This document shows, piece after piece, positions 2,797-15,732 of a stretch of DNA of 64,000 nt (positions within the stretch are counted from its first letter, which is position 1; every line of letters starts with the position of its first letter). The translations under genes were made by a program, and so were the position numbers. A model generated the notes under the pieces. The model searched no databases. It was not told the origin of the DNA and saw nothing but the letters and a program-made list of their open reading frames with translations. The DNA lies in NCBI RefSeq assembly GCF_024172085.1, contig NZ_JAMZDZ010000001.1:2976001-3040000 (forward strand). The letters are read 5' to 3'. Source of the stretch: Hamadaea flava (GTDB lineage: Bacteria > Actinomycetota > Actinomycetes > Mycobacteriales > Micromonosporaceae).

Positions 2797-3657
2797 ATGC
2801 CAACCTTTGAGACTCCCGCGCCGATCTCCGCTTCCGTCGACATCGTCCTCGGCGACATCACCTTCGCTGCCGGCGAGCGCGCCGACACCGTGGTCGAGGT
2901 CCAGCCCATCGATCCCACCCGGCCGCTCGACATCCAGGCCGCCGACCAGGTCATCATCGAGTACGCCCAAGGCAGGCTGCAGGTCAAGCACCCGAAGCTG
3001 CGCACGGCGTTCGCCAGCCGCTACGGCTCGGTACGCGTACTGGTGTGGTTGCCGGCCGGTTCGCATGTTCAGGGGAACACCGCCGAGGGCGAATACGTCG
3101 TTCAGGGTGTGGTCGGCTCGTGCCGGCTGAAGAACGCCATCGGTGACATCCGGGTCGAGCAGGCTTCGGAGGTACGCCTGAAGACGTCCGGCGGCCGGGT
3201 GACCGTCGACCACGTGACCGGTTCGGCCGACGTCTCCGCCAACGGGGCGGTCCGCGTACGCCGCATCGACGGTGACGCGGAGGTGACCACCGTCGGCGGC
3301 GAGATCTGGATCGGCGAGGTCGGCGGTGAGCTGCGGGCGGATTCGTCCGTCGGCGGCATCACCGTCGAGGTGGCGCACGCGGCCGTCAAGGCGAAGACCG
3401 CCACCGGGCACATCCGCGTCGGCCGACTCGGCAGCGGCCCGGTCGACCTGTCCGCCGCCATCGGCAAGCTGGAGGTCGGCGTACCGGCGGGCATTGCCGT
3501 CCGGTTGGACGCGCACACCCCGACCGGCCGGGTCCGCAACCTGCTGGACGCCGCCGACGACCAGTCCGGCCGGACGGTCAAGGTACGCGCACGCTGCAAC
3601 GGTGGTGGAGACATCGTCGTCCACCGCGCCGACGCGTCGCTCAGCTCGCGAGGGTGA
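2797..3657 (+). CDS. DUF4097 family beta-helix-like protein
   Basis: 286-residue protein of short beta-strand repeats (GDIRVEQAS, GGRVTVDHVTG, GGEIWIGEVGG) of the kind found in DUF4097/DUF4098 proteins, probably a right-handed beta-solenoid. No signal peptide or membrane segment, so cytoplasmic as read. Start ATG 2797 begins MPTFETPAPISA; no good ribosome site is present upstream. The function of the family is not established. Its last 17 bases overlap the convergent SARP-type regulator gene. Confidence 0.75.
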   Translation: MPTFETPAPISASVDIVLGDITFAAGERADTVVEVQPIDPTRPLDIQAADQVIIEYAQGRLQVKHPKLRTAFASRYGSVRVLVWLPAGSHVQGNTAEGEYVVQGVVGSCRLKNAIGDIRVEQASEVRLKTSGGRVTVDHVTGSADVSANGAVRVRRIDGDAEVTTVGGEIWIGEVGGELRADSSVGGITVEVAHAAVKAKTATGHIRVGRLGSGPVDLSAAIGKLEVGVPAGIAVRLDAHTPTGRVRNLLDAADDQSGRTVKVRARCNGGGDIVVHRADASLSSRG

Positions 3658-6600
3658 TCTCGGCCAGCTCCTGCCAGTCTCGGTCCCGCCCGTCCTGGAG
3701 CGCCTCGGCGAACACGGCTTCGCCGAGGCGCTGCCGCACTTCCTCGCCGATCCGGGCGGCGTCGGGCTGCGTACGATCAGGCATTCCGCGCACGTTCTCA
3801 CTGGCCGCGAGCAGTCGCGCGGCTTGTTCGTCCTGTCCTTGCCGGGCGGCCTGATCCGCGATCCCGACCAGCACCTGCGCGATCATCGGCCGATAGCTGA
3901 GCTGGACCGCCGCCCGCAACGCCCCGGCCCGGTACGCGCGGGCCTCGCCGAGGTCCTCGGCGAGGTAGCCGCGCACGTCCTGGAGCAGGACGTACAGGCC
4001 GCTCGTGTCGTCGCCGGGCCGCATGCGGATCGTCGCCAGATGCTCCCGCGCCTGGTCCGCCTCGCCCCGGAACCGCGCGAGTTGCGCTTGTGCCAGCGCG
4101 ACTTCGCCCAGGGTGTCCGGCCAGGTGATGCCGTCGGCCGCCCGCACCGCCTCCGCCAGGGTGATCAGGCTGGCCCGCTCGTCGCCGAGCAGCCAATACA
4201 GCTGGGCCTGCCGGGTCCGGATGCTGACCACCTCTTCGGTCCCGCCCACTTCGACGAGCACCGCGGCCGCTTCCTCGTAGTACGCGCACGCCGCCGCGAA
4301 CTCGCCGCGCGGGCCGAGCCGATCCGCCAGGAAGGTCAGCGCTCCCGAGATCCCCCACCGTTCGCCGAGCGCCCGCGATTCGGCGAGGGCGGCTTCGATG
4401 TCGTCGTCCACCTGGTCCACTTCGCGGCCGAGGGCGAGCCGCAGCCGGCTGCGCGTGAGCCGGGCCTGCGCCCGCACCCACGGATCGGCGTCGTGGATCA
4501 GCGGCTCGTACGCCGGCAGGAAGTCGGCCGGTTCCCGCAGCATGCGTTCCAGCGGCCGGGCGAACGCGAGCAGCGGATGCGTCGACCCGCTGAGTTCGGT
4601 GTATCGGTAGGCGTCCTCGATCCACTGCTGCGCCTGGTATTGGTCGCCGGCCGCGCCGGAACTGACGAAGAGCGTGACGATGGTGCAGGCCAACGCGCGT
4701 ACCTCGGCGGACACCTCACCGGGAACGGAGGCCCCGGCGATGCTCAGCTCGGTGCCCTCGGCCCGATGCCCGCTGAGGAACCAGTACCACCCCGCCGCGC
4801 CGACCAGCCGCATGGCCTCCTCTGCCCAGCCTTCGGCGATCGCCAGACGCAGGGCCGCGCTGATGTTGTCGTGCTCGGCTTCCACTTTGGACATCCAGGT
4901 GAGCTGCTCGGCCCGGCGCAGATGCGGATCAGCCGTCTCGGTCAGCTCGACCACATATCCGACGTACGCCCGCCGCGCGGACTCGGCGTCGCCGGATTCG
5001 GTCAGGCGCTGGTCGGCGTACTCGCGGATGGTGTTGAGCATCCGATAGCGTGGCTCGTCCTCGCCGTACGCGAGCAGCAGCGACTTCTCCGTCAACGCGG
5101 TCAGCAGGTCGAGGGCGTCGTTGCCGTCGGCGCACACCCGTTCGGCCGCTTCGAGGCTGACCCCGCCGGCGAACACCGACAGCCTGCGCAGCAGGTCCCG
5201 CTCGGCCTCGCTGAGCAGGTCCCAACTCCAGTCCACCACCGCGCGCAACGTCCGGTGCCGGGCTAGCGCCGTCCGGCTGCCGCCGGTGAGCAGCTGGAAT
5301 CGGTCGTCGAGCCGATCCGCCAACTGCTCCACCGACATCGTCCGCAGCCGCGCCGCCGCCAACTCGATCGCCAGCGGCATCCCGTCGAGCGCCCGGCATA
5401 CGCGTGCCATCGTGGCCAGCGTCCGTTCATCGGAACCGACGTTCCGGCGTACCGCCTCGGCCCGATCGCGGAGCAACCGGACCGCGGGCGACGCGCCGAC
5501 CTCGGCGGCCGGCGCACCCTGCGCGGGCAGAGCGAGCGGCTCGACCTGCCACAGCGCCTCGCCGGTGATACCGAGCGGCTCGCGGCTCGTGGCGATGATC
5601 CGCAGCCGCCGGCACTCGCCGAGCAGCCGGTCCGCGAACTCCGAAACCGCCTCGATCATGTGCTCGCAGTTGTCCAGGACCAGCAACATCACCCGGTCCC
5701 GGACCGCGGCGACCAGCCGGTCCACCGCGTCACCGCCCGGGGCCCCGCCGCCCGCCGACTGGTCCCGCAGGCCGATCGCGGTCAGCGTGGCCTGCGCCAG
5801 CTCACCGCCCGCCTGGAGCGGGGCCAGCTCCACCAGCCACGCGCCGTCCGGCAGGTCGCCGAGCATCGTCCGCGCGGTCTCCGTGGCGAGCCGCGTCTTA
5901 CCGGAACCACCCGCGCCCGTCAGCGTGACCAGCCGGTGCCGGGTCGCCAGCTCCGCGATCGCCGCGACGTCCTCTTCCTTGCCCACGAACGTGGTCAGCT
6001 CGGCCCGCAGGTTCGTGCGCCGGTTCTCCGCCCGCCCGCCGATCTCGCCGCGCAAGACCGCCGTGTTCACCGCCGACAACTCGGCCGACGGGTCCACTCC
6101 CAGTTCGTCGGCCAGCCGCTCCGACAATTGCTGGTACGCCGTCAGCGCCTCTGCCCCACGTCCCGCCTCGGCCAGAGCGCGCATCAACGCCGCGACGAAG
6201 CCCTCCCGCAAGGGATGGCTCGCCACCAACTCCGTCAGCTCGGAGACCAGGTCCGCGCCGCGGCCGAGGCGTACCTCGGCGTCCACGCGATCGCCGAGCA
6301 CGGCGACGTGCAGTTCGGTCAGCCCGGTGACCGCGGAGTCGAACGCCTTGCTGCCCGACAGGGCGATGCCTTCCATCGCCGTCCCGCGCCACAACCCCAA
6401 CGCCGTACGCAGCAGGCTGACGCGTACCGGATCGTCGGCCTCGCGAGCCTCGGCGACCAGGCGCTCGAACCGGCTCACGTCGACCGACTCGGGATCGACG
6501 GCCAGCCGGTAGCCGCCCGCCTTCGCCTCGACCAGCCCGTCCGGCAGCAGCCGGCGCAGCCGGGACACCAGGACCTGCAGCGCGTTCACCGCGTCGGCGG

Positions 6601-6763
6601 GTGGCTCCTCGCCCCAGATCCAGTCGACCAGCCGCGTACGCGGAACGATCCGGCCGGGCTCCAGTGCGAGCGCGGCGAGCAACGCGCGCAGCCGGGCGCC
6701 CGGCACCTCCACCATGCCGCCGTCGACCTGGACTTCGAACGGACCGAGCAACCCAATACGCAC
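3641..6763 (-). CDS. SARP/AfsR-like regulator: wHTH-BTAD-NB-ARC-TPR
   Basis: Large transcriptional regulator of about 1040 residues. The N-terminal OmpR-like winged helix (residues 1-85) and BTAD (about 90-235) mark it as a SARP. An NB-ARC ATPase follows with P-loop GAGGSGKT near residue 285 and Walker B LLVLDNCEH, then ATSREPLG and a long helical TPR-like tail. Such proteins activate secondary-metabolite genes by binding heptameric direct repeats. Start GTG 6763 gives the usual VRIGLLGPFEV opening; ATG 6781 is possible. It lies only 54 bases after the S26 peptidase stop on the same strand, so it may be cotranscribed with the peptide cluster. Confidence 0.88.
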   Translation of the reverse strand: MRIGLLGPFEVQVDGGMVEVPGARLRALLAALALEPGRIVPRTRLVDWIWGEEPPADAVNALQVLVSRLRRLLPDGLVEAKAGGYRLAVDPESVDVSRFERLVAEAREADDPVRVSLLRTALGLWRGTAMEGIALSGSKAFDSAVTGLTELHVAVLGDRVDAEVRLGRGADLVSELTELVASHPLREGFVAALMRALAEAGRGAEALTAYQQLSERLADELGVDPSAELSAVNTAVLRGEIGGRAENRRTNLRAELTTFVGKEEDVAAIAELATRHRLVTLTGAGGSGKTRLATETARTMLGDLPDGAWLVELAPLQAGGELAQATLTAIGLRDQSAGGGAPGGDAVDRLVAAVRDRVMLLVLDNCEHMIEAVSEFADRLLGECRRLRIIATSREPLGITGEALWQVEPLALPAQGAPAAEVGASPAVRLLRDRAEAVRRNVGSDERTLATMARVCRALDGMPLAIELAAARLRTMSVEQLADRLDDRFQLLTGGSRTALARHRTLRAVVDWSWDLLSEAERDLLRRLSVFAGGVSLEAAERVCADGNDALDLLTALTEKSLLLAYGEDEPRYRMLNTIREYADQRLTESGDAESARRAYVGYVVELTETADPHLRRAEQLTWMSKVEAEHDNISAALRLAIAEGWAEEAMRLVGAAGWYWFLSGHRAEGTELSIAGASVPGEVSAEVRALACTIVTLFVSSGAAGDQYQAQQWIEDAYRYTELSGSTHPLLAFARPLERMLREPADFLPAYEPLIHDADPWVRAQARLTRSRLRLALGREVDQVDDDIEAALAESRALGERWGISGALTFLADRLGPRGEFAAACAYYEEAAAVLVEVGGTEEVVSIRTRQAQLYWLLGDERASLITLAEAVRAADGITWPDTLGEVALAQAQLARFRGEADQAREHLATIRMRPGDDTSGLYVLLQDVRGYLAEDLGEARAYRAGALRAAVQLSYRPMIAQVLVGIADQAARQGQDEQAARLLAASENVRGMPDRTQPDAARIGEEVRQRLGEAVFAEALQDGRDRDWQELAEITLAS

Positions 6764-6817
6764 GTGGCCATCTTGCCGCATCGACAGGCCGGTCCGCATA
6801 TGCCGCAATTCACACGT

Positions 6818-7243
6818 TCACGGGGTACTCCCAGCAAGGCGGCGCTGAACGACGCCGACCACGCTGTCCAGCGCGATGTAGCCGAGCTCTCGTGAATCGA
6901 GACTGCGCTGGTTGTCCCCCAGGACCACGAGCTGACCTGGTGGCACCACGGCGTCGCCGATGCGGGTTCGGGCCGCCTCCGGTACCGGATCGCCCGGCAC
7001 CGCCGCCACCCGCTTGACCAGCAACGCCGGCCCCATCGGGATCTCGATCGGCGAGGTGAACACCACGACGTCGTCCCGGCGGCACACCCGCGTACGCCGC
7101 ATGAGCAGCCGATCGCCGTGCTGATAGCTGGGCGCCATGCTCTGACCCTTGACCGTGATGACTTTGACGCGCAGCCGGGCCAGGATCAACACCACGCCGA
7201 AAGCCGACAGGACCGCCGCGCTGATCAGTCCGGCCTCCGTCAT
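6818..7243 (-). CDS. S26 family signal peptidase of the peptide cluster
   Basis: 141-residue type I signal peptidase-like protein: N-terminal membrane helix (residues 5-22), catalytic serine in GQSMAPSYQHGD, catalytic lysine in LLVKRVAAVPGD, and the conserved LGDNQRSLDSREL box. It is short compared with housekeeping SipS/LepB (180-300 residues), like specialised or IMP-type members. ATG 7243 overlaps the stop of the ABC exporter gene (ATGA), so the two are translationally coupled. In this operon it probably removes the leader of the 8-cysteine peptide, whose leader ends in AEAGA just before the first cysteine (inference). Confidence 0.88.
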   Translation of the reverse strand: MTEAGLISAAVLSAFGVVLILARLRVKVITVKGQSMAPSYQHGDRLLMRRTRVCRRDDVVVFTSPIEIPMGPALLVKRVAAVPGDPVPEAARTRIGDAVVPPGQLVVLGDNQRSLDSRELGYIALDSVVGVVQRRLAGSTP

Positions 7244-9072
7244 CCGGCCACCGCCTCGGCCGCCTGGTAATTCGCCGCCTGGTAATTCGCCGCCTGCAGG
7301 CGGAACAGCTCGGCGTACTGGCCGTCCAGCGCCAGCAGCGCGTCGTGGGTGCCCTGCTCGACGACGACCCCGTCGGCCAGCACCACGATGTCGTCGGCTT
7401 GCCGCATGGTGCCGAGGCGGTGCGAGATGTGCAAACCGGTACGCCCCTCGCGCGTGCGGCGGATGACCTCGGCGAGATCGTGTTCGGCGACCGGATCCAG
7501 CCCGGAGCTCGGTTCGTCGAGGATCAGCAGGTCCGCGTCGGTACGCAGCAACGACCGGGCCAGCGCCAGCCGCTGATTCTGACCGCCGGACAGCTGAACG
7601 CCGGGATCGTCGGACCCGTCGAAGACGAAGATCCGGCTCAGCATCGTGTCGTACGCGGCAGGCAGCGCCTCGATGGTGTCGTGCAGGCCGACCGCGCGGG
7701 CCGCCGCGACGACGCGTCCCTTGTCGTGCATGGTTTCCACGTCGCCGAGGGCGATGTTCTCCCCCACCGGCAGCTCATAGGTCTGGAAGTCCTGGAAGGT
7801 GGCGCTGATCCGGCGGCGCAGCCAGCTGAGCGGAAGGTCGCGCAGGTCGACGCCGTCCCAGGTGATCCGGCCGCGATCGGGATCGTAGAACCGGCACAGC
7901 AGCTTCACGAGAGTGCTCTTGCCGGCGCCGTTGCGGCCGACCAGACCCGTCGACGATCCGGCCGGGATGACCAGGTCGACTCCCCGCAGCACCCAGGGGC
8001 CACTCTCGTCGTATCGGAACCACACGTCCTCGAAGACGATGCCGGTGCGGAGCGGACCAGGCCGCACAGTTCCCTCGACCAGGTCGTCCGGCGCCTGCGC
8101 GACGTTGAGGTAGTGCCCGAACAACCGCGTGCAGCGTACGGCGTCCTGCAGGCTGTTGACCATGCCGAGCAGCGCGCCCTGCACGGCGGTCGCGGCCGCC
8201 AGGAACAGCGCGAAGTCGCCGGGCGTCAACTCGCCACCGGCGATCCGGTACGCCACGAGCCCCGCGCCCACCGCCAACGCCACCGATCCCAGTCCGCTCA
8301 ACGAGCCCTGCACGACCGCGGACCTGCCCTGAATCCGCAGCTCGGCCGAGACCGCCGTACGCATCGCGCCCAGCATCCGGTCCCGGAACAGCCCGGCCAG
8401 CCCGTAGAGGCGTACCTCCTTCGCCGAGCGCAGATCGGTCAGCAGTTCCTGGTACGCGATCCGCCGCCGATGCGTCGCCATCACCGCGCGGGCGACGTCG
8501 GCCTGCCGCCGGGCCACCGTCAGCTGGGCCACGACCGCGAACACCGTGACGACGAGCAGCAGGGCGGCCATCGGTGGCCAGACGGCGACGACCACCCCGA
8601 CCAGGCTGCCGATCGTCACCACCGAGCGGACCAGGCCGAAGAGGAAGTTGGTCAGCACCGACGGTGCCTCTGCGGCGGCGTCGGTGGCCAGCCGCAGTTC
8701 GTCGGCGAACGCCGGATCCTCGAAGCGCCGCAGCCCGCCGAAGCCGCTGACCCGTTGGTAGATCTCGGCCTGGGCCCGGTGCGCGATCGCCGCCTCGGCT
8801 CGCCGGTGCAGGAACCCGGCCGCGTAGCCCAGCGCGAGAGCTGCCCCGGTCGCCGCGGCCGCTGCGGCGGCGAGCCCGGCCAGCCGGGCCGGACTGGCCG
8901 GCGTCGCACCGGCGAGCCCGTCGATGAGGAGCTTGCTCAGCCACGCCGCGACGGCCGGTCCCATCCCGGCCAGCGCCGTCACCAGGGCCGCGGCGATCAG
9001 CGGCCCAGCCGCCGCCCGCCCGGCCAGCGCCAGGGCAGCCACGGCGGCCCGCCGAGGCGACCGACCGGTCAC
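7240..9072 (-). CDS. ABC exporter, fused permease and ATPase, for the cysteine-rich peptide
   Basis: 610-residue half-transporter with an N-terminal six-helix exporter domain (residues about 20-310) and a C-terminal ATPase: Walker A GRNGAGKST, signature QLSGGQNQR, Walker B LLILDEPSSGLD, H-loop HRLGT. There is no C39 leader-peptidase domain, so leader cleavage must be done by another protein, plausibly the S26 peptidase downstream. GTG 9072 overlaps the TGA of the thiol oxidoreductase gene (GTGA), and its own stop overlaps the peptidase start: tight coupling. The likely substrate is the peptide at 9689-9892. Confidence 0.9.
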   Translation of the reverse strand: MTGRSPRRAAVAALALAGRAAAGPLIAAALVTALAGMGPAVAAWLSKLLIDGLAGATPASPARLAGLAAAAAAATGAALALGYAAGFLHRRAEAAIAHRAQAEIYQRVSGFGGLRRFEDPAFADELRLATDAAAEAPSVLTNFLFGLVRSVVTIGSLVGVVVAVWPPMAALLLVVTVFAVVAQLTVARRQADVARAVMATHRRRIAYQELLTDLRSAKEVRLYGLAGLFRDRMLGAMRTAVSAELRIQGRSAVVQGSLSGLGSVALAVGAGLVAYRIAGGELTPGDFALFLAAATAVQGALLGMVNSLQDAVRCTRLFGHYLNVAQAPDDLVEGTVRPGPLRTGIVFEDVWFRYDESGPWVLRGVDLVIPAGSSTGLVGRNGAGKSTLVKLLCRFYDPDRGRITWDGVDLRDLPLSWLRRRISATFQDFQTYELPVGENIALGDVETMHDKGRVVAAARAVGLHDTIEALPAAYDTMLSRIFVFDGSDDPGVQLSGGQNQRLALARSLLRTDADLLILDEPSSGLDPVAEHDLAEVIRRTREGRTGLHISHRLGTMRQADDIVVLADGVVVEQGTHDALLALDGQYAELFRLQAANYQAANYQAAEAVAG

Positions 9073-9587
9073 GCCGCGTCCACGAGGTGCGCAGCAGGCA
9101 GGAGCGACGCGCGCACCCGCACGATCGTTCCGTCGGCGACCTCCAGCACGGTCGGGTAGGTCGACACCTGGAAGCCCTCCGACGCCGCGTCGCCCAGCGG
9201 CGAAAGCACGACTCGCGTCGTCTCGGGCAGCTCGGCGAGGATCTCCTGCACGGCCGGATCGGTGCCGGCGCCGGAGATGACGATCACCAGCCCCGGAACG
9301 ACCGCTGAGCGGACCTCCTCGACGAGGCTCGTGCACCCGCCGCAGTTCGGCAACAGGAACACCAAGGTATGCCGTCCGTGGCGCAGATCGGCTTCCGAGA
9401 ATGGTGCGCCGTCGAGCGTGGTGGCCCGGAACGGCCGGACCAGGGCGCCTGCCGACGGCCGGTACGCGGCGGGGTCGACCGGGCCGCTCGTCGTCCGCCA
9501 CCGCCGGATCAGGGAGAAGGTCAGCAGCAGGTTCAGCGTCACCACCACGGCGAGGATCGCCACGGCGGCCGAGAGGACCGTGATCAT
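9069..9587 (-). CDS. MauD/TlpA-like membrane-anchored thiol-disulfide oxidoreductase
   Basis: 172 residues: one N-terminal membrane helix (residues 2-28, ending FSLIRRW), then a thioredoxin fold outside the membrane with the active site NCGGC (a CxxC motif) and the cis-proline loop STYPTVLEV. The topology and the GxPxPxF-type opening resemble MauD, which supports disulfide formation in the methylamine dehydrogenase light chain. Start ATG 9587 has GGAG 8 bases upstream. It sits between the 8-cysteine peptide gene and the exporter, so it likely forms or corrects the disulfides of that peptide. No MauE partner is seen in the window. Confidence 0.85.
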   Translation of the reverse strand: MITVLSAAVAILAVVVTLNLLLTFSLIRRWRTTSGPVDPAAYRPSAGALVRPFRATTLDGAPFSEADLRHGRHTLVFLLPNCGGCTSLVEEVRSAVVPGLVIVISGAGTDPAVQEILAELPETTRVVLSPLGDAASEGFQVSTYPTVLEVADGTIVRVRASLLPAAHLVDAA

Positions 9588-9656
9588 CGTGAGTCTCCGG
9601 TTCGCGTCAGAAAACAGGGCTGCGGGACACAAGGCTGGGGGCACAAAGGCAGGGAC

Positions 9657-9680
9657 GGCGCCGCAGTCGCCTGCGGCGCC
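9657..9680 (-). terminator. Hairpin attenuator between peptide gene and maturation genes
   Basis: Perfect 10-bp GC-rich stem (GGCGCCGCAG with CTGCGGCGCC) around a 4-base loop that reads GCGA, a GNRA tetraloop, in the transcript. It starts 9 bases after the peptide stop codon and is followed by a pyrimidine-rich, not U-only, stretch. It would cap an abundant short peptide mRNA and allow partial read-through into the oxidoreductase, exporter and peptidase genes, as in many bacteriocin operons. Confidence 0.8.
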
Positions 9681-9688
9681 GGTGTGGA

Positions 9689-9892
9689 TCAGCAGCGCGA
9701 GCTGGAGACGTAGCAGTACTCGGTGTAGCAGCTCCAGACGTTCTTGTAGCAGATGTACGCGCCGCTGGCCTGACGCAGACACGTACAGGTGCCGCAGGAC
9801 GAACCCGCTCCCGGGTCGCACGCGCCGGCCTCCGCCTTCGGCAGGAACAGTCCGAGCACGGCATCGCCGGCCCGTCGCATCACCTCGACCAT
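9689..9892 (-). CDS. Cysteine-rich secreted peptide precursor (67 aa, 8 Cys)
   Basis: Small gene with a strong ribosome site (GGAGG, 7 bases before ATG 9892). The leader of about 24 residues (MVEVMRRAGDAVLGLFLPKA, then EAGA) ends in an A-x-A-like signal-peptidase site directly before the first cysteine. The core of about 43 residues has cysteines at 25, 33, 36, 38, 48, 55, 60 and 67, plus many Tyr, Ser and Gly; an even number allows four disulfides. It heads an operon with a thiol oxidoreductase, ABC exporter and S26 peptidase. No lanthionine, YcaO, radical SAM or glycosyltransferase gene is adjacent. I do not recognise the family; a toxin, pheromone, bacteriocin or structural miniprotein are all possible. 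Confidence 0.8.
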   Translation of the reverse strand: MVEVMRRAGDAVLGLFLPKAEAGACDPGAGSSCGTCTCLRQASGAYICYKNVWSCYTEYCYVSSSRC

Positions 9893-9960
9893 GTAAGCCC
9901 TCCGATCAGGAACTGATGATTGGGAATATTGAAGATCGATGGCAGAATGTGCGGCAACAG

Positions 9961-9997: not shown

Positions 9998-12319
9998 ATG
10001 GATTCTGTGGATCCGCCGGATCCCGCTTCGGCGACGACCGCCGACGGTTTCGTCACCGTCCTCGCCCGCTTCCGGGTCTGGTCGGGTAACCCGTCCCTCC
10101 GAAAACTCCAGCAGCACGCCGAGCGACCCGAGGCGCTGCCGCCGACGACGGTCTCCTGGATCCTGAGCGGCAAGGGCCTGCCTCGGCTGCCGCGCTGGGA
10201 GTTCGTCGCCGCCTTCGTCACCGCCTGCCTGCGCTACAGCGGTACGCCGCAGACGCCGTGGGTCGAGGTAGAACGCTGGCGGCAGGCGTGGCGGACACTG
10301 GCCCGAGGGCAGGCCGCCAGCGTCACCACTACGGTGCCCGCACAGCTACCGGCGCCGTATCGCCACTTCACCGGGCGGGAGACGGAGCTGAACCTGCTCG
10401 ACACGGCGTACCGGACGGCCGGGGGCATCGTGGCGATCGTCGGGCCGGGCGGCGTCGGCAAGACGGCCCTCGCCGCGAGCTGGGCACACCAACGCAAGGA
10501 TCAGTTCCCCGACGGGCAGCTGTACGCCGACCTTCGCGGCTTCCACCCCGACCGGCCGATCTCGGCCGACGTCGCGCTGACCGGCATGCTCACCGCACTC
10601 GGCGTACGCCCCTCAGCGATGCCGGACGACCTGCCCGCACGCTCGGCCTTCCTGCGTACGCTGTGCGCCGATCGCCGGCTGCTCATCATCCTCGACAACG
10701 CCCGGGACGGCGAACACGTCCGGCCGCTGCTGCCCGGCAGCGACTCCTGCCTGGTGCTGGTCACCAGCCGGGACACGCTGGCCGGGCTGGTCGGACGAGA
10801 CGGCGCCACCCGGATCCGGCTGGGCCGGCTCGCGGACGAGGCCGCCCTGCGCCTGGTGAACAACGTCATCCGGGCCGCGCACGCCGCCGGACCGCCGGTC
10901 GAAGTGCTGCGCCCCGGACCCGACAGCACCGAACTGGTCGACCTGTGCGGCGGGCTGCCCTTGGCCCTCTGCATCGCCGGGGAGCGTGCCGCCAACGGCC
11001 ACGACCCGATCGCCGACGTCGTCGCCGGCCTGCGCGACGAGACCCGGCGACTGGACCTCTTGTCGCCCGAGGGAGACCCGCAGTTCGCCATCCGGACGGT
11101 GATCGAATGGTCCTACCGGGACCTCGCCCCCGGCGCCCGGGAGCTGTTCCAGGTGCTGTCGCTGCATCCGGGCGAGAGCTGGCCGGTTGAGGCGGCCGCC
11201 GCCCTGGCGGGGGTACCGGTCGGCGAGGCGGCGTCCCGGCTGGATCTGCTCGCCCGGCGGCACCTGGTCGAACACACCGGACCGCAACGCTATCGGCTGC
11301 ACGATCTCGTGCACGCCTTCGCCGCGGAGCGGCTGCGCTCGGCCGACGATGACGGCCTCTCACCGGCCGCCGCCCAGCGACTGTCCACATGGTACCGACG
11401 CATGATCACGGGCATGACGGCCGCTCTCGACCCGGCCGGATACCGGGAGCCGAGTTGGCCCAGCGACGTCTTCTCGTCCGCCAAACAGGCGCTGGCGTGG
11501 GGCGAGCAGGAGCGAGCCACCCTGCGCCGGCTCACGACCGGCGGCACCGACCCGGAACTGGTCTGCGAGCTGGCCGTGGCGCTCGGATCCTTCTACCGGG
11601 CAGCCAAGTACACCCACGACTGGATCGCGGTCAACCGGGCCGGGCTGGTCGCCGCCCGCCGATGCGGCGATCAGGCGGCGCAGGCTCGGCTGCTCACCGC
11701 CCTCGGCCACGCGCACCTGGACTTGGGCCAGCCGGCCAACGCCGCACCGTTCCTGGCGGCGGCGTTGCCGTTGCGGGCCGGGACGCAGGATCAACGGGGG
11801 CTGGCCGTGACGCTCAACAGCCTCGCCATCGCCCATCGGCGTACCGGCCGGCTCGGTCCCGCCGCCCGCCGGCTTCGCGAGGCACTGGCCATCCAGCGTG
11901 CCATCGGCGACCGCGGCGGCCAGGCCCTGACCCTGAACAACCTCGGCAACGTCGCCCGCGACCAGGGCCGATTCGTCGCCGCACTGCGGCATCTCACCGA
12001 GTCACTGACCATTGAGGACGGCCTGGCGCCCAGGAGTTCCCGGTGCATCGTGCTGTGCAGTCTCGGCGAGACCTACCACGCGATGGCGGCGTACGACCGC
12101 GCCGCGGCCCACTTCAACCGCGGCTTGCGGCTGGCCGAAGACCTCGGTGACGTGTGGCAGCAGGCGACTCTGCTCACCGAACTCGGCCACACCTGGTCCG
12201 CCTCCGGCGAGCCGGAGGCGGCCCGCGACTGCTGGCAGCGCGCCGAGCGCATCTTCGCCGCCCGCGACGATCCCCGCGCAGCCGAAGTACGAGCGCACCT
12301 CACGGGACGGAGAGTCTAG
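9998..12319 (+). CDS. STAND regulator: XRE-like N-terminus, NB-ARC, TPR
   Basis: 773-residue regulator. Residues 20-80 form a helix-turn-helix-like region (LRKLQQHAE, TVSWILSGKGLP) typical of actinobacterial XRE/STAND proteins. An NB-ARC ATPase follows with P-loop GPGGVGKT near residue 150, Walker B LLIILDNA and the GLPLAL motif. The tail carries several TPR repeats (ALTLNNLGNVARDQGRF). Start ATG 9998 has a run of six G 9 bases upstream. It is divergent from the cysteine-rich peptide operon, with the ATTGCAC repeats between, so it is the leading candidate for that operon's regulator. The ligand sensed by the TPR part is unknown. Confidence 0.87.
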   Translation: MDSVDPPDPASATTADGFVTVLARFRVWSGNPSLRKLQQHAERPEALPPTTVSWILSGKGLPRLPRWEFVAAFVTACLRYSGTPQTPWVEVERWRQAWRTLARGQAASVTTTVPAQLPAPYRHFTGRETELNLLDTAYRTAGGIVAIVGPGGVGKTALAASWAHQRKDQFPDGQLYADLRGFHPDRPISADVALTGMLTALGVRPSAMPDDLPARSAFLRTLCADRRLLIILDNARDGEHVRPLLPGSDSCLVLVTSRDTLAGLVGRDGATRIRLGRLADEAALRLVNNVIRAAHAAGPPVEVLRPGPDSTELVDLCGGLPLALCIAGERAANGHDPIADVVAGLRDETRRLDLLSPEGDPQFAIRTVIEWSYRDLAPGARELFQVLSLHPGESWPVEAAAALAGVPVGEAASRLDLLARRHLVEHTGPQRYRLHDLVHAFAAERLRSADDDGLSPAAAQRLSTWYRRMITGMTAALDPAGYREPSWPSDVFSSAKQALAWGEQERATLRRLTTGGTDPELVCELAVALGSFYRAAKYTHDWIAVNRAGLVAARRCGDQAAQARLLTALGHAHLDLGQPANAAPFLAAALPLRAGTQDQRGLAVTLNSLAIAHRRTGRLGPAARRLREALAIQRAIGDRGGQALTLNNLGNVARDQGRFVAALRHLTESLTIEDGLAPRSSRCIVLCSLGETYHAMAAYDRAAAHFNRGLRLAEDLGDVWQQATLLTELGHTWSASGEPEAARDCWQRAERIFAARDDPRAAEVRAHLTGRRV

Positions 12320-13450: not shown

Positions 13451-13466
13451 GAAATGAGGCGTGACG

Positions 13467-13856
13467 ATGATGGAGTTCCACCTCGACGGCCGGTCCGGAG
13501 TGGCTCCCTACCTGCAGCTGATCCAGCAGGTCCGGCGGGCCCTGCGGCTGGGGCTGCTGGTCGAGGGGGATCGGCTGCCGACCGTCAAGGAGGTGGTCGC
13601 GAAGGTGGCGATCAACCCGAACACGGTCTCCAAGGCCTACCGCGAACTCGAGTACCAGGGTCTCGTCGCCGCGAAGCCCGGCGTGGGCACGTTCGTCGTC
13701 CGCACGTTGGCCGACGAGTCGATGGTCGCGCACGAGGCACTGCGTGCGGAGCTTCAGGCGTGGCTGGGCAAGGCACGCGCCGCCGGATTGGCCGACGAGA
13801 GCATCGAGGCCCTCATCGCGACCACGCTTCATACCCCCACGGAGGAGTCCAGATGA
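13467..13856 (+). CDS. GntR family regulator, YtrA subfamily
   Basis: About 129 residues: an N-terminal winged helix (YLQLIQQVRRALRLGLL, then RLPTVKEVVAKVAINPNTVSKAYRELE) and only a short helical tail, as in YtrA-type repressors that control ABC operons. Start ATG 13467 has GAGG 7 bases upstream; GTG 13461 would leave no spacing. It overlaps the ATPase gene by 4 bases. It probably represses its own operon through the ACTAG/CTAGT repeat at 13437-13450 until an antibiotic or envelope signal appears (by family). Confidence 0.92.
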   Translation: MMEFHLDGRSGVAPYLQLIQQVRRALRLGLLVEGDRLPTVKEVVAKVAINPNTVSKAYRELEYQGLVAAKPGVGTFVVRTLADESMVAHEALRAELQAWLGKARAAGLADESIEALIATTLHTPTEESR

Positions 13857-14737
13857 CCGAACCCGCGCTCAAGGCAGTGGGTCTGACCAAGCGGTACGGG
13901 CGGCATCTCGCCCTGTCCGGCTGCACTCTCGACATCCCGGCCGGGCGCGTCGTCGGGCTCGTCGGCCCGAACGGCGCCGGCAAGACGACCCTGCTGCAGT
14001 TGGCGGCCGGCATGCTGATGCCGACGTCGGGCTCCATCGAGGTCCTGGGCGGCCGGCCGGCCGCCGGCGCCGACCAGCTGGCCAAGGTGGGATTCGTCGC
14101 CCAGGACACCCCCACCTACGCGAACCTGTCCGTCGCCGAGCACCTCCGTTTCGGCGCGTCCGCCAATCCGCGCTGGGATCAGGCGGCCGCGCAGGGGCGC
14201 ATCGCCCAGCTCGGGCTGAACCCGAAGCAGAAGGCGGGCCGGCTCTCGGGCGGACAGCGAGCCCAGCTCGCGCTCACGCTGGCCATCGCGAAGCAGCCGG
14301 ACCTGCTCATCCTCGACGAGCCGGTGGCCAGCCTCGATCCGATGGCCCGCCGCGAGTTCCTGAGAGGACTGATGGGCTTCACCGCGGAGCACAAGGCGAG
14401 CGTCATCATGTCCTCGCATCTCGTGTCCGATCTGGAGCGCGTCTGCGACTACCTCGTCGTGCTCGTCGCCTCCCAGATCCGCGTCGCTGGTGACGTCGAC
14501 GACCTGCTGGCCGGCCACTTCCGGCTCAGCGGCCCACGACAGGACCGCACCGGTCTGCCACAGGGGGTACAGGTCATCGAGGAGAGCCACGTCGAGCGGC
14601 AGTCGACCTTCCTCGTCCGCGCCGACGGCCCGCTCCACCCCGGGTCGTTCACCGTCGATCCGCTCAGCTTGGAAGACCTGGTCCTCGCGTACATGGCGCA
14701 GGCCACGACCCAACCCGCCGAGGAGGCCGTCCGATGA
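13853..14737 (+). CDS. ABC transporter ATP-binding protein
   Basis: 294-residue ATPase with Walker A GPNGAGKTT, Q-loop FVAQDTPT, signature RLSGGQRAQ, Walker B LLILDEPVASLD and H-loop SSHLVSD. The C-terminal 80 residues are a family-specific extension. GGAGGAG lies just before ATG 13853, which overlaps the GntR stop (ATGA). Together with the next gene it forms a YtrBC-like or drug/peptide ABC-2 exporter; the substrate cannot be told from sequence. Confidence 0.93.
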   Translation: MTEPALKAVGLTKRYGRHLALSGCTLDIPAGRVVGLVGPNGAGKTTLLQLAAGMLMPTSGSIEVLGGRPAAGADQLAKVGFVAQDTPTYANLSVAEHLRFGASANPRWDQAAAQGRIAQLGLNPKQKAGRLSGGQRAQLALTLAIAKQPDLLILDEPVASLDPMARREFLRGLMGFTAEHKASVIMSSHLVSDLERVCDYLVVLVASQIRVAGDVDDLLAGHFRLSGPRQDRTGLPQGVQVIEESHVERQSTFLVRADGPLHPGSFTVDPLSLEDLVLAYMAQATTQPAEEAVR

Positions 14738-15732
14738 TCTGGTTCACCTGGCGCCAGGTCCGGTCCCAGACCGTGATCACCGCGGCGGCACTGGCCGCGT
14801 TCGGCGTCCTGCTGCTCGTCACCGCCGGCATCATCACCGACTTGTACGCCGAAGTAGCGGCCTGTCACAGCGGCTGCGAGAGCGTGGTGTCCACGTTCCT
14901 CGCCCGTTTCCGCGCCAGCGCGGCGTTCCCGACGTATCTCGCGGCGCTGGGCGCCATGTATCTGCTGCCGCTGCTCCTCGGCATCTTCGGGGGCGCACCG
15001 CTGATCGCCCGGGAGCTCGAGAGCGGCACCCACCGTCTGGTGTGGAACCAGTCGGTGACCCGGACGCGGTGGCTCGCGGTCCGGCTCGCGGCGGGCGTCG
15101 CGATCGCGGTCACGTCGACCGGCCTGCTCAGTTGGGCGGTGACCGTCTGGTCGCAGCGGGTGGACTCCGCCTCCCAGGACCGGGTCATTCCGCTGTTGTT
15201 CGGATCGCGTGGGATCCTGCCCGTCGCGTACGCGTTGTTCGCCTTCCTGCTCGGGGTCACCACCGGGATGCTCCTGCGCAAGGTGGTTCCCGCCATCGCG
15301 CTGACCTTGGCGCTCTACGTGGGTTCGGTAGTGGCCATGCCGCTATGGGTCCGTGCCCACCTCGTCCCGCCCGTACATGACACGATCGCGCTGACCGCTG
15401 ACAACGTTCAGGGTCTGTCGCTGAGCCCCAGCAGTGGCCAGATGACGGTCGTCGGCGCGGAGACAGCGAACGCCTGGACTGTCGGCAACCAGACCATCCT
15501 GCCCGACGGGAGCACCTTCACCGGTCCCGCCGACCTCAGCGCGTGCGGCCCGGAAGCCTCCCCGACCACATGCAAGGAGTGGCTCGCCTCGCTCCATCTC
15601 CGACAGGACGTGCTCTATCACCCGGACAGTCACTTCTGGCCGTTGCAGTGGGCGGAGGCCGGACTGTTCGTCGGCCTGGCCGTGCTGCTCGGCGCGTTCT
15701 GCTTCTGGTGGGTCCGCCGCCGGATCGTCTGA
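14734..15732 (+). CDS. ABC-2 type permease
   Basis: 332-residue membrane protein with six predicted helices: an N-terminal helix after MIWFTWRQVRSQ, then a hydrophilic loop, four central helices (including YLAALGAMYLLPLLLGIFGG), a long outside loop of about 90 residues (roughly 215-300) with a cysteine pair, and a last helix before FWWVRRRIV. ATG 14734 overlaps the ATPase stop. Partner permease of the upstream ATPase; convergent with the sigma factor gene that follows. Confidence 0.88.
   Translation: MIWFTWRQVRSQTVITAAALAAFGVLLLVTAGIITDLYAEVAACHSGCESVVSTFLARFRASAAFPTYLAALGAMYLLPLLLGIFGGAPLIARELESGTHRLVWNQSVTRTRWLAVRLAAGVAIAVTSTGLLSWAVTVWSQRVDSASQDRVIPLLFGSRGILPVAYALFAFLLGVTTGMLLRKVVPAIALTLALYVGSVVAMPLWVRAHLVPPVHDTIALTADNVQGLSLSPSSGQMTVVGAETANAWTVGNQTILPDGSTFTGPADLSACGPEASPTTCKEWLASLHLRQDVLYHPDSHFWPLQWAEAGLFVGLAVLLGAFCFWWVRRRIV

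Follow-up and report, generated by a model that had tools for sequence, protein, structure and literature searches.

A putative cassette for exported, disulfide-rich mini-proteins in Hamadaea flava and its relatives

The stretch of Hamadaea flava DNA analyzed here (the window; 64,000 nucleotides, NCBI RefSeq assembly GCF_024172085.1, contig NZ_JAMZDZ010000001.1, positions 2,976,001 to 3,040,000) contains, at positions 6818 to 9892, a gene for a small cysteine-rich precursor peptide followed by genes for a MauD-like thioredoxin, an ATP-binding cassette (ABC) exporter and an S26 signal peptidase. We consider it likely that these genes form a cassette that produces and exports a disulfide-bonded mini-protein, with export by the ABC protein, cleavage by the S26 peptidase, oxidation by MauD and MauE, and control by a SARP regulator. 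The gene set, the family, its linkage, the division into leader and core and the even number of cysteines are read from the sequence; the export route, the order of steps, the disulfides, the regulation and service in trans are what we infer from them. An initial annotation of this DNA had suggested such a secreted peptide system. Our analysis supports its finding as right and larger than stated, with a mechanism drawn from gene content and statistics.

Results and Discussion

The cassette and its family

The features of the cassette are as follows.

9689..9892, minus strand: precursor peptide gene, 67 residues with eight cysteines, stop included (translation and profile family)
9821..9892, minus strand: leader MVEVMRRAGDAVLGLFLPKAEAGA, with the conserved GD..L motif and an A-x-A end (from alignments)
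9692..9820, minus strand: hypervariable core, 43 residues with eight cysteines if cut after AGA
9069..9587, minus strand: MauD/TlpA-like membrane-anchored thioredoxin, active site CGGC
7240..9072, minus strand: ABC exporter, membrane and ATPase domains fused, no C39 domain (Pfam, NCBIfam)
6818..7243, minus strand: S26 signal peptidase (PF10502, E 4.7e-22; TIGR02227, E 4.8e-23)

The precursor gene starts with ATG, stops with TGA and is preceded by a GGAGGG ribosome site at 9898–9903. Translation confirmed the 67 residues and eight cysteines of the initial annotation, as well as a leader that terminates in AEAGA directly ahead of the first cysteine. The order MauD-like protein, ABC exporter, S26 peptidase on one strand is likewise borne out by the coordinates. 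Both the MauD/ABC and the ABC/S26 junctions overlap by 4 bases, and the gap from the precursor to the MauD gene is 101 bases. The exporter consists of the Pfam domains ABC_membrane and ABC_tran. A C39 peptidase domain, already noted as missing, was found in it by neither Pfam nor NCBIfam. In the S26 peptidase, putative Ser/Lys motifs were assigned by eye. A short repeat, QAANYQAANYQAAEA, at 7243–7300 forms the end of the ABC exporter, beside the S26 start.

The same gene set recurs elsewhere with different precursors, so its occurrence in the window is not chance. With the window precursor alone as query, 8 of 201 genomes gave a match, the window genome included. Six of the nine other loci fetched (L011–L016) have precursor, MauD, ABC and S26, with the caveats that the L014 precursor was found by a separate reading and that the MauD match in L015 is weak. 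An eight-sequence profile at E 0.01 gave matches in 48 of 201 relatives and in 14 of 394 class genomes; with a 46-sequence profile at E 0.001, for which part of the candidates were scored, the numbers were 35 of 121 relatives (own genome included) and 22 of 394 class genomes. Class-wide weak matches at E 0.004–0.01 (for example L028–L032) do not read as precursors and were left uncounted.

A precursor stands together with this ABC in 39 of 52 fetched neighborhoods, the window not counted. These 39 loci contain MauD in 38 cases, S26 in 37, a SARP in 29 (scored when a SARP-like open reading frame (ORF) lies within 6 kb) and MauE in 23. Twelve other precursor loci lack the ABC and have a SARP nearby in 3 of 12; L019, a weak match containing stops and hence without a counted precursor, has neither precursor nor ABC. 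The initial annotation had named two outcomes that would speak against it: homologues of the precursor missing outside this locus, or a match to a characterized family. Homologues do occur elsewhere, with the linkage just given, and searches of Pfam, NCBIfam, PHROGs and PDB sequences tied the precursor to no described family. The 46 family members scanned gave no Pfam or NCBIfam family either. The scorpion-toxin-like family BmKX (PF09132) was rejected, as a single member of the 46 reached 17.3 bits against a cut-off of 24, and one NCBIfam match of the precursors at E 0.076 is at chance level. As to a knottin or other known disulfide fold, no PDB sequence matched at E 1, and the structure model of the precursor (predicted local distance difference test (pLDDT) 46.9) was set aside for its low confidence.

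Used as query against plasmid records, the ABC protein gave matches in 29, and the three opened were Streptomyces clavuligerus pSCL4, Embleya sp. NBC_00896 and Nonomuraea gerenzanensis. At each locus, MauD and S26 accompany two precursors that bear the leader, and MauE is present at two of the three; all six precursors have an even number of cysteines. A tblastn search of the plasmid records with two precursors gave no match. The cassette on pSCL4 of S. clavuligerus F613-1 (L210:3943–8168), with two precursors, is a convenient test system; if cut after AHA, the oxidized peptides have computed masses of 4916.6 and 4800.3 Da. In that record MauE/DoxX and the S26 peptidase are named, and both precursors and MauD are annotated as ‘hypothetical protein’.

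Leader, core and probable export route

A GD(R)LL-type motif and a terminal A-x-A mark the leader that the precursors have in common, as seen in alignments (one tandem copy in L087 was excluded from alignment A4). The cores that follow are strongly variable and rich in Cys, Gly, Tyr, Thr and Ser. With the profile at E 1e-3 over all 219 loci and the window, A-x-A stands ahead of the first core cysteine in 128 of 129 distinct precursors, and the number of cysteines is even (4 to 12) in 126 of 129 distinct cores. Loosening the parity count to E 1e-2 adds one core with five cysteines (126 of 130 even). Clusters of similar cores are even in 57 of 59 cases in a set of 92 precursors. Even cysteine numbers and the A-x-A site are as expected for disulfides and S26 cleavage. 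In the window, a cut between AGA and the cysteine would give a peptide with a computed oxidized mass of 4640 Da, slightly below the ∼4.7 kDa first estimated; a cut after AEA would add Gly-Ala to the core, for 45 residues.

The precursor might instead leave by the Sec route, in which case the S26 peptidase would be an ordinary one and the ABC protein would export something else or serve self-protection. Sec substrates are the normal targets of S26 enzymes, and signal peptidases usually cut at A-x-A. Moreover, 7 of 92 leaders have an uncharged non-polar stretch of at least 10 residues. However, the best 11-residue Kyte–Doolittle (KD) value of the leaders has a median of 0.94, mostly far below that of Sec signals, and only 2 of 92 reach 2.0, so that the leaders, judged by KD, appear mostly too polar for Sec. 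Genome content points the same way. The ABC subfamily is present in 40 of 121 genomes, precursors at E 0.001 were found in 35 of those 40, and none were found in the 81 genomes without it (Fisher p 2e-25, relatedness ignored; G151, 74 % complete, was excluded from the comparison of precursors to ABC). We regard exit by Sec as improbable and favor export by the ABC protein.

We propose that translation yields a precursor whose short leader, probably amphipathic and helical and unlike a Sec signal, would be recognized by the ABC exporter, which would move the reduced peptide across the membrane. There the membrane-bound S26 peptidase would cut after A-x-A, and the resulting peptide would have 43 or 45 residues and a mass of ∼4.64 kDa or a little above. 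Its eight cysteines would then be oxidized to four disulfides by the MauD-like thioredoxin, which is expected to be anchored on the outside. This thioredoxin would probably be recycled by MauE, here likely in trans from another cassette. The SARP would activate the operon, as in antibiotic clusters, and in some relatives the machine would stand alone and serve dozens of dispersed precursor genes.

MauD, MauE and the state of the cysteines

Pfam gives no good match for the window MauD-like protein itself (best E 0.51). Its assignment as a MauD-like oxidoreductase in the initial annotation nevertheless holds. The CxxC motif and one Pro are invariant across a 38-member alignment, 21 of the 38 members match AhpC-TSA in Pfam, and the profile matches ResA, DsbE and DsbF chains. 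The model has one N-terminal helix (residues 2–33, mean pLDDT 79.8) and a thioredoxin fold, and its structural matches are ResA, Etrx, DsbE and CcmG. The MauE proteins of the family loci belong to PF07291 in 22 of 22 members. The window genome has a single strong MauE, at another cassette, and a second match that is weak (1.8e-8). The description of the window cassette as self-contained holds only if MauE is unneeded or shared.

Stand-alone MauE genes lie at L180:9428–10009 and L198:9541–10146, in surroundings that seem similar when read by eye. In these two genomes, which are rich in orphan precursors, MauE gives the impression of having settled as a fixed gene of the chromosome.

The cysteines might also bind metal or form thioether or other crosslinks, with MauD keeping them reduced or taking part in another redox step. 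Many structural matches of MauD are of TlpA/ResA/DsbE types, some of which act as reductants, and the disulfides themselves are a prediction. Even cysteine numbers in nearly all cores speak against this possibility, as does the presence of MauE in 23 of 39 loci. In addition, a Pfam scan of 12 window proteins (4 of the cassette and 8 flanking ORFs) gave no lanthipeptide, radical SAM, YcaO or glycosyltransferase domain, in agreement with the initial annotation. Metal binding or crosslinking thus seems rather unlikely to us, and we retain oxidation to disulfides as the preferred reading.

Regulators and the role of the peptide

Two regulators flank the cassette.

3641..6808, minus strand: SARP/AfsR-like regulator ORF with BTAD, Trans_reg_C and a weak AAA match; true start uncertain
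9998..12319, plus strand: divergent NB-ARC/TPR regulator (Pfam scan of flanking ORFs)

The SARP ORF lies directly downstream on the same strand and opens 9 bases past the S26 stop. The first 100 residues of the NB-ARC/TPR regulator were matched in only two of the loci compared. Further along the window, at 13461–15732, a GntR regulator is followed by an ABC ATPase and an ORF without a Pfam match.

The role of the peptide is a guess. Antagonism of competitors or other organisms is the most likely one, by a modest margin over even chances. Signals or developmental surface proteins of the producer are a distinctly less favored but possible role. The hosts are actinobacteria, which have complex life cycles, and no dedicated immunity gene was recognized, though none was systematically searched for. 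Several findings argue against this second role. The core varies more than the leader, family-wide and in 10 of 10 pairs of related precursors, and SARP regulators, which are typical of antibiotic clusters, neighbor 29 of 39 loci. In a congener (G003), neither precursors nor the ABC subfamily appeared at the cut-offs used; the system may be gained and lost within one genus. We keep antagonism as the working assumption.

Core identity is 29–47 % in nine of the ten pairs; the likely orthologue pair L093/L096 retains its core at 91 % identity. At L167:4168–5141 two precursor genes lie in tandem, and the 60 bases upstream of them are 95 % alike. Their synonymous difference is 0.06 in the leader versus 0.53 in the core, and the cores are 37 % identical. 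Point mutation under selection does not easily account for this alone, thus suggesting core replacement or swapping, or homogenization of leader and promoter.

Points against the cassette

Several observations weigh against the proposed cassette. The product, its disulfides and its activity are predictions from the genes. MauE is absent from the window. Three of the 129 distinct cores have seven cysteines, and a weaker precursor (L208, E 3.5e-3) has five. Among control small ORFs with at least four cysteines, 43 of 59 are even, so the null expectation for parity lies above 50 %, and a null of 50 % would be generous. The non-polar stretches in 7 of 92 leaders, the low confidence of the precursor model and the lack of a recognized immunity gene in a reading that made no systematic search for one belong here as well. 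The SARP linkage is a plain count of neighbors. In five genomes the ABC is present and no precursor reaches the cut-off. In seven loci read in these genomes, precursor-like peptides were seen in two of the five genomes and none in the other three, where one locus hits a contig edge. In L214 and L219, MauE, MauD and ABC stand together, and the profiles found no precursor or S26; these loci may hold divergent ones.

Cassettes and dispersed precursors

Profile searches of the window genome gave six matches each for precursor, MauD and ABC, the last above 600 bits. Precursor, MauD, ABC and S26 stand together in the window and at five more loci of this genome. Another genome of the same family, G010, is organized differently. 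Scoring 150 of 245 candidates gave 60 precursor matches at E 0.1, and scoring 50 gave 45 at E 0.001. A single ABC of the subfamily is paired with S26, no precursor was found beside it, and two MauD and one strong MauE lie in separate places. We read 47 precursors from 33 loci of G010. The precursor is alone in 31 of the 33; of the other two loci, one has a MauD match and the other an S26 match. Of these 47 precursors, 43 are preceded by a ribosome-site word, versus 3 of 47 at a control position. No partner gene recurs in more than 3 of the 33 orphan loci (ORFs of at least 70 residues), a SARP-like ORF lies within 6 kb of one of them, and the words upstream of the orphan precursors include some enriched ones and no clear motif. 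The numbers of precursors and ABC proteins per genome vary widely (G029, 35 and 2; G083, 29 and 1; G042, 9 and 3; G001, 4 and 4; G076, 23 and 19). G083 has one full cassette.

About 60 dispersed precursors and one ABC in G010 suggest that one machine serves a hypervariable library in trans. The gene counts in G010 and G083 are most simply explained if many precursors share one machine. The orphan precursors could also leave by another exporter. On balance we lean somewhat towards the view that some actinobacteria maintain a genome-wide, hypervariable library of disulfide mini-proteins under one leader. One or two ABC exporters with S26, MauD and MauE would process this library in trans, and replacement of the core, with leader and promoter kept, would diversify it.

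Relation to known systems

Glycocins are disulfide-bonded peptides with a thioredoxin-like oxidase and an ABC exporter; they need a glycosyltransferase and usually have a C39-type exporter. The analogy to glycocins drawn in the initial annotation is functional, as neither of these two class traits was found in the 12 window proteins. In the prochlorosins a single machine handles numerous precursors whose leader is conserved and whose cores are hypervariable. The proposed library resembles them in this respect, but lanthionine rings, made by LanM, are a prochlorosin feature. The library may also be likened to the conotoxin superfamilies of cone snails, with a conserved pre-region, a hypervariable Cys-rich mature region and large repertoires; conotoxins are made in animal venom glands through the secretory pathway, and we claim no homology. 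In the broad sense the family has the gene-level traits of a ribosomally synthesized and post-translationally modified peptide (RiPP), with a ribosomal precursor, a conserved leader, a variable core and adjacent processing genes.

The closest precedent comes from decRiPPter (PLoS Biol 2020, PMC7794033), which noted three Streptomyces candidate families with mauE, one of them also with mauD. Their precursors have at least eight cysteines; they were proposed as RiPP candidates and are uncharacterized. The filter used required a transporter, a peptidase and a regulator. The window locus shares with these candidates a precursor of at least eight cysteines, mauD, a transporter, a peptidase and a regulator, but has no mauE in the cluster. 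The relevant passages treat the three as separate families; they mention no shared leader, no S26/A-x-A logic and no exporter subfamily, nor cysteine parity, an orphan library, another taxon or a product. These families are likely the same as the present one, on a comparison by description. The initial annotation knew of no described class with this exact gene set; these candidates qualify that statement. In the maturation of methylamine dehydrogenase, which the same paper touches on, MauE and MauD serve a client proposed to need disulfides; here that client would be a family of mini-proteins, with linked genes for an ABC exporter and an S26 peptidase. TMcin (PMC13252029) is loosely similar, in that a leader is removed, a dedicated thiol oxidase acts and a disulfide peptide is exported by an ABC protein. 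It differs in being staphylococcal and membrane-spanning, with one disulfide, a zinc protease and a DsbA-like oxidase. The open-licence literature gave no account of a unified family, cysteine parity, exporter linkage or dispersed libraries; a later description in subscription journals is possible.

Conclusion

The family appears to be large and almost unstudied in actinobacteria. If our reading is true, it represents a widespread export-and-oxidation route for disulfide-rich mini-proteins in which an S26 peptidase replaces the C39 domain. With 129 distinct cores read here, it would offer many stable scaffolds and might help in the production of disulfide-rich peptides. It would also make testable how one leader routes dozens of unrelated Cys-rich cores through one machine.

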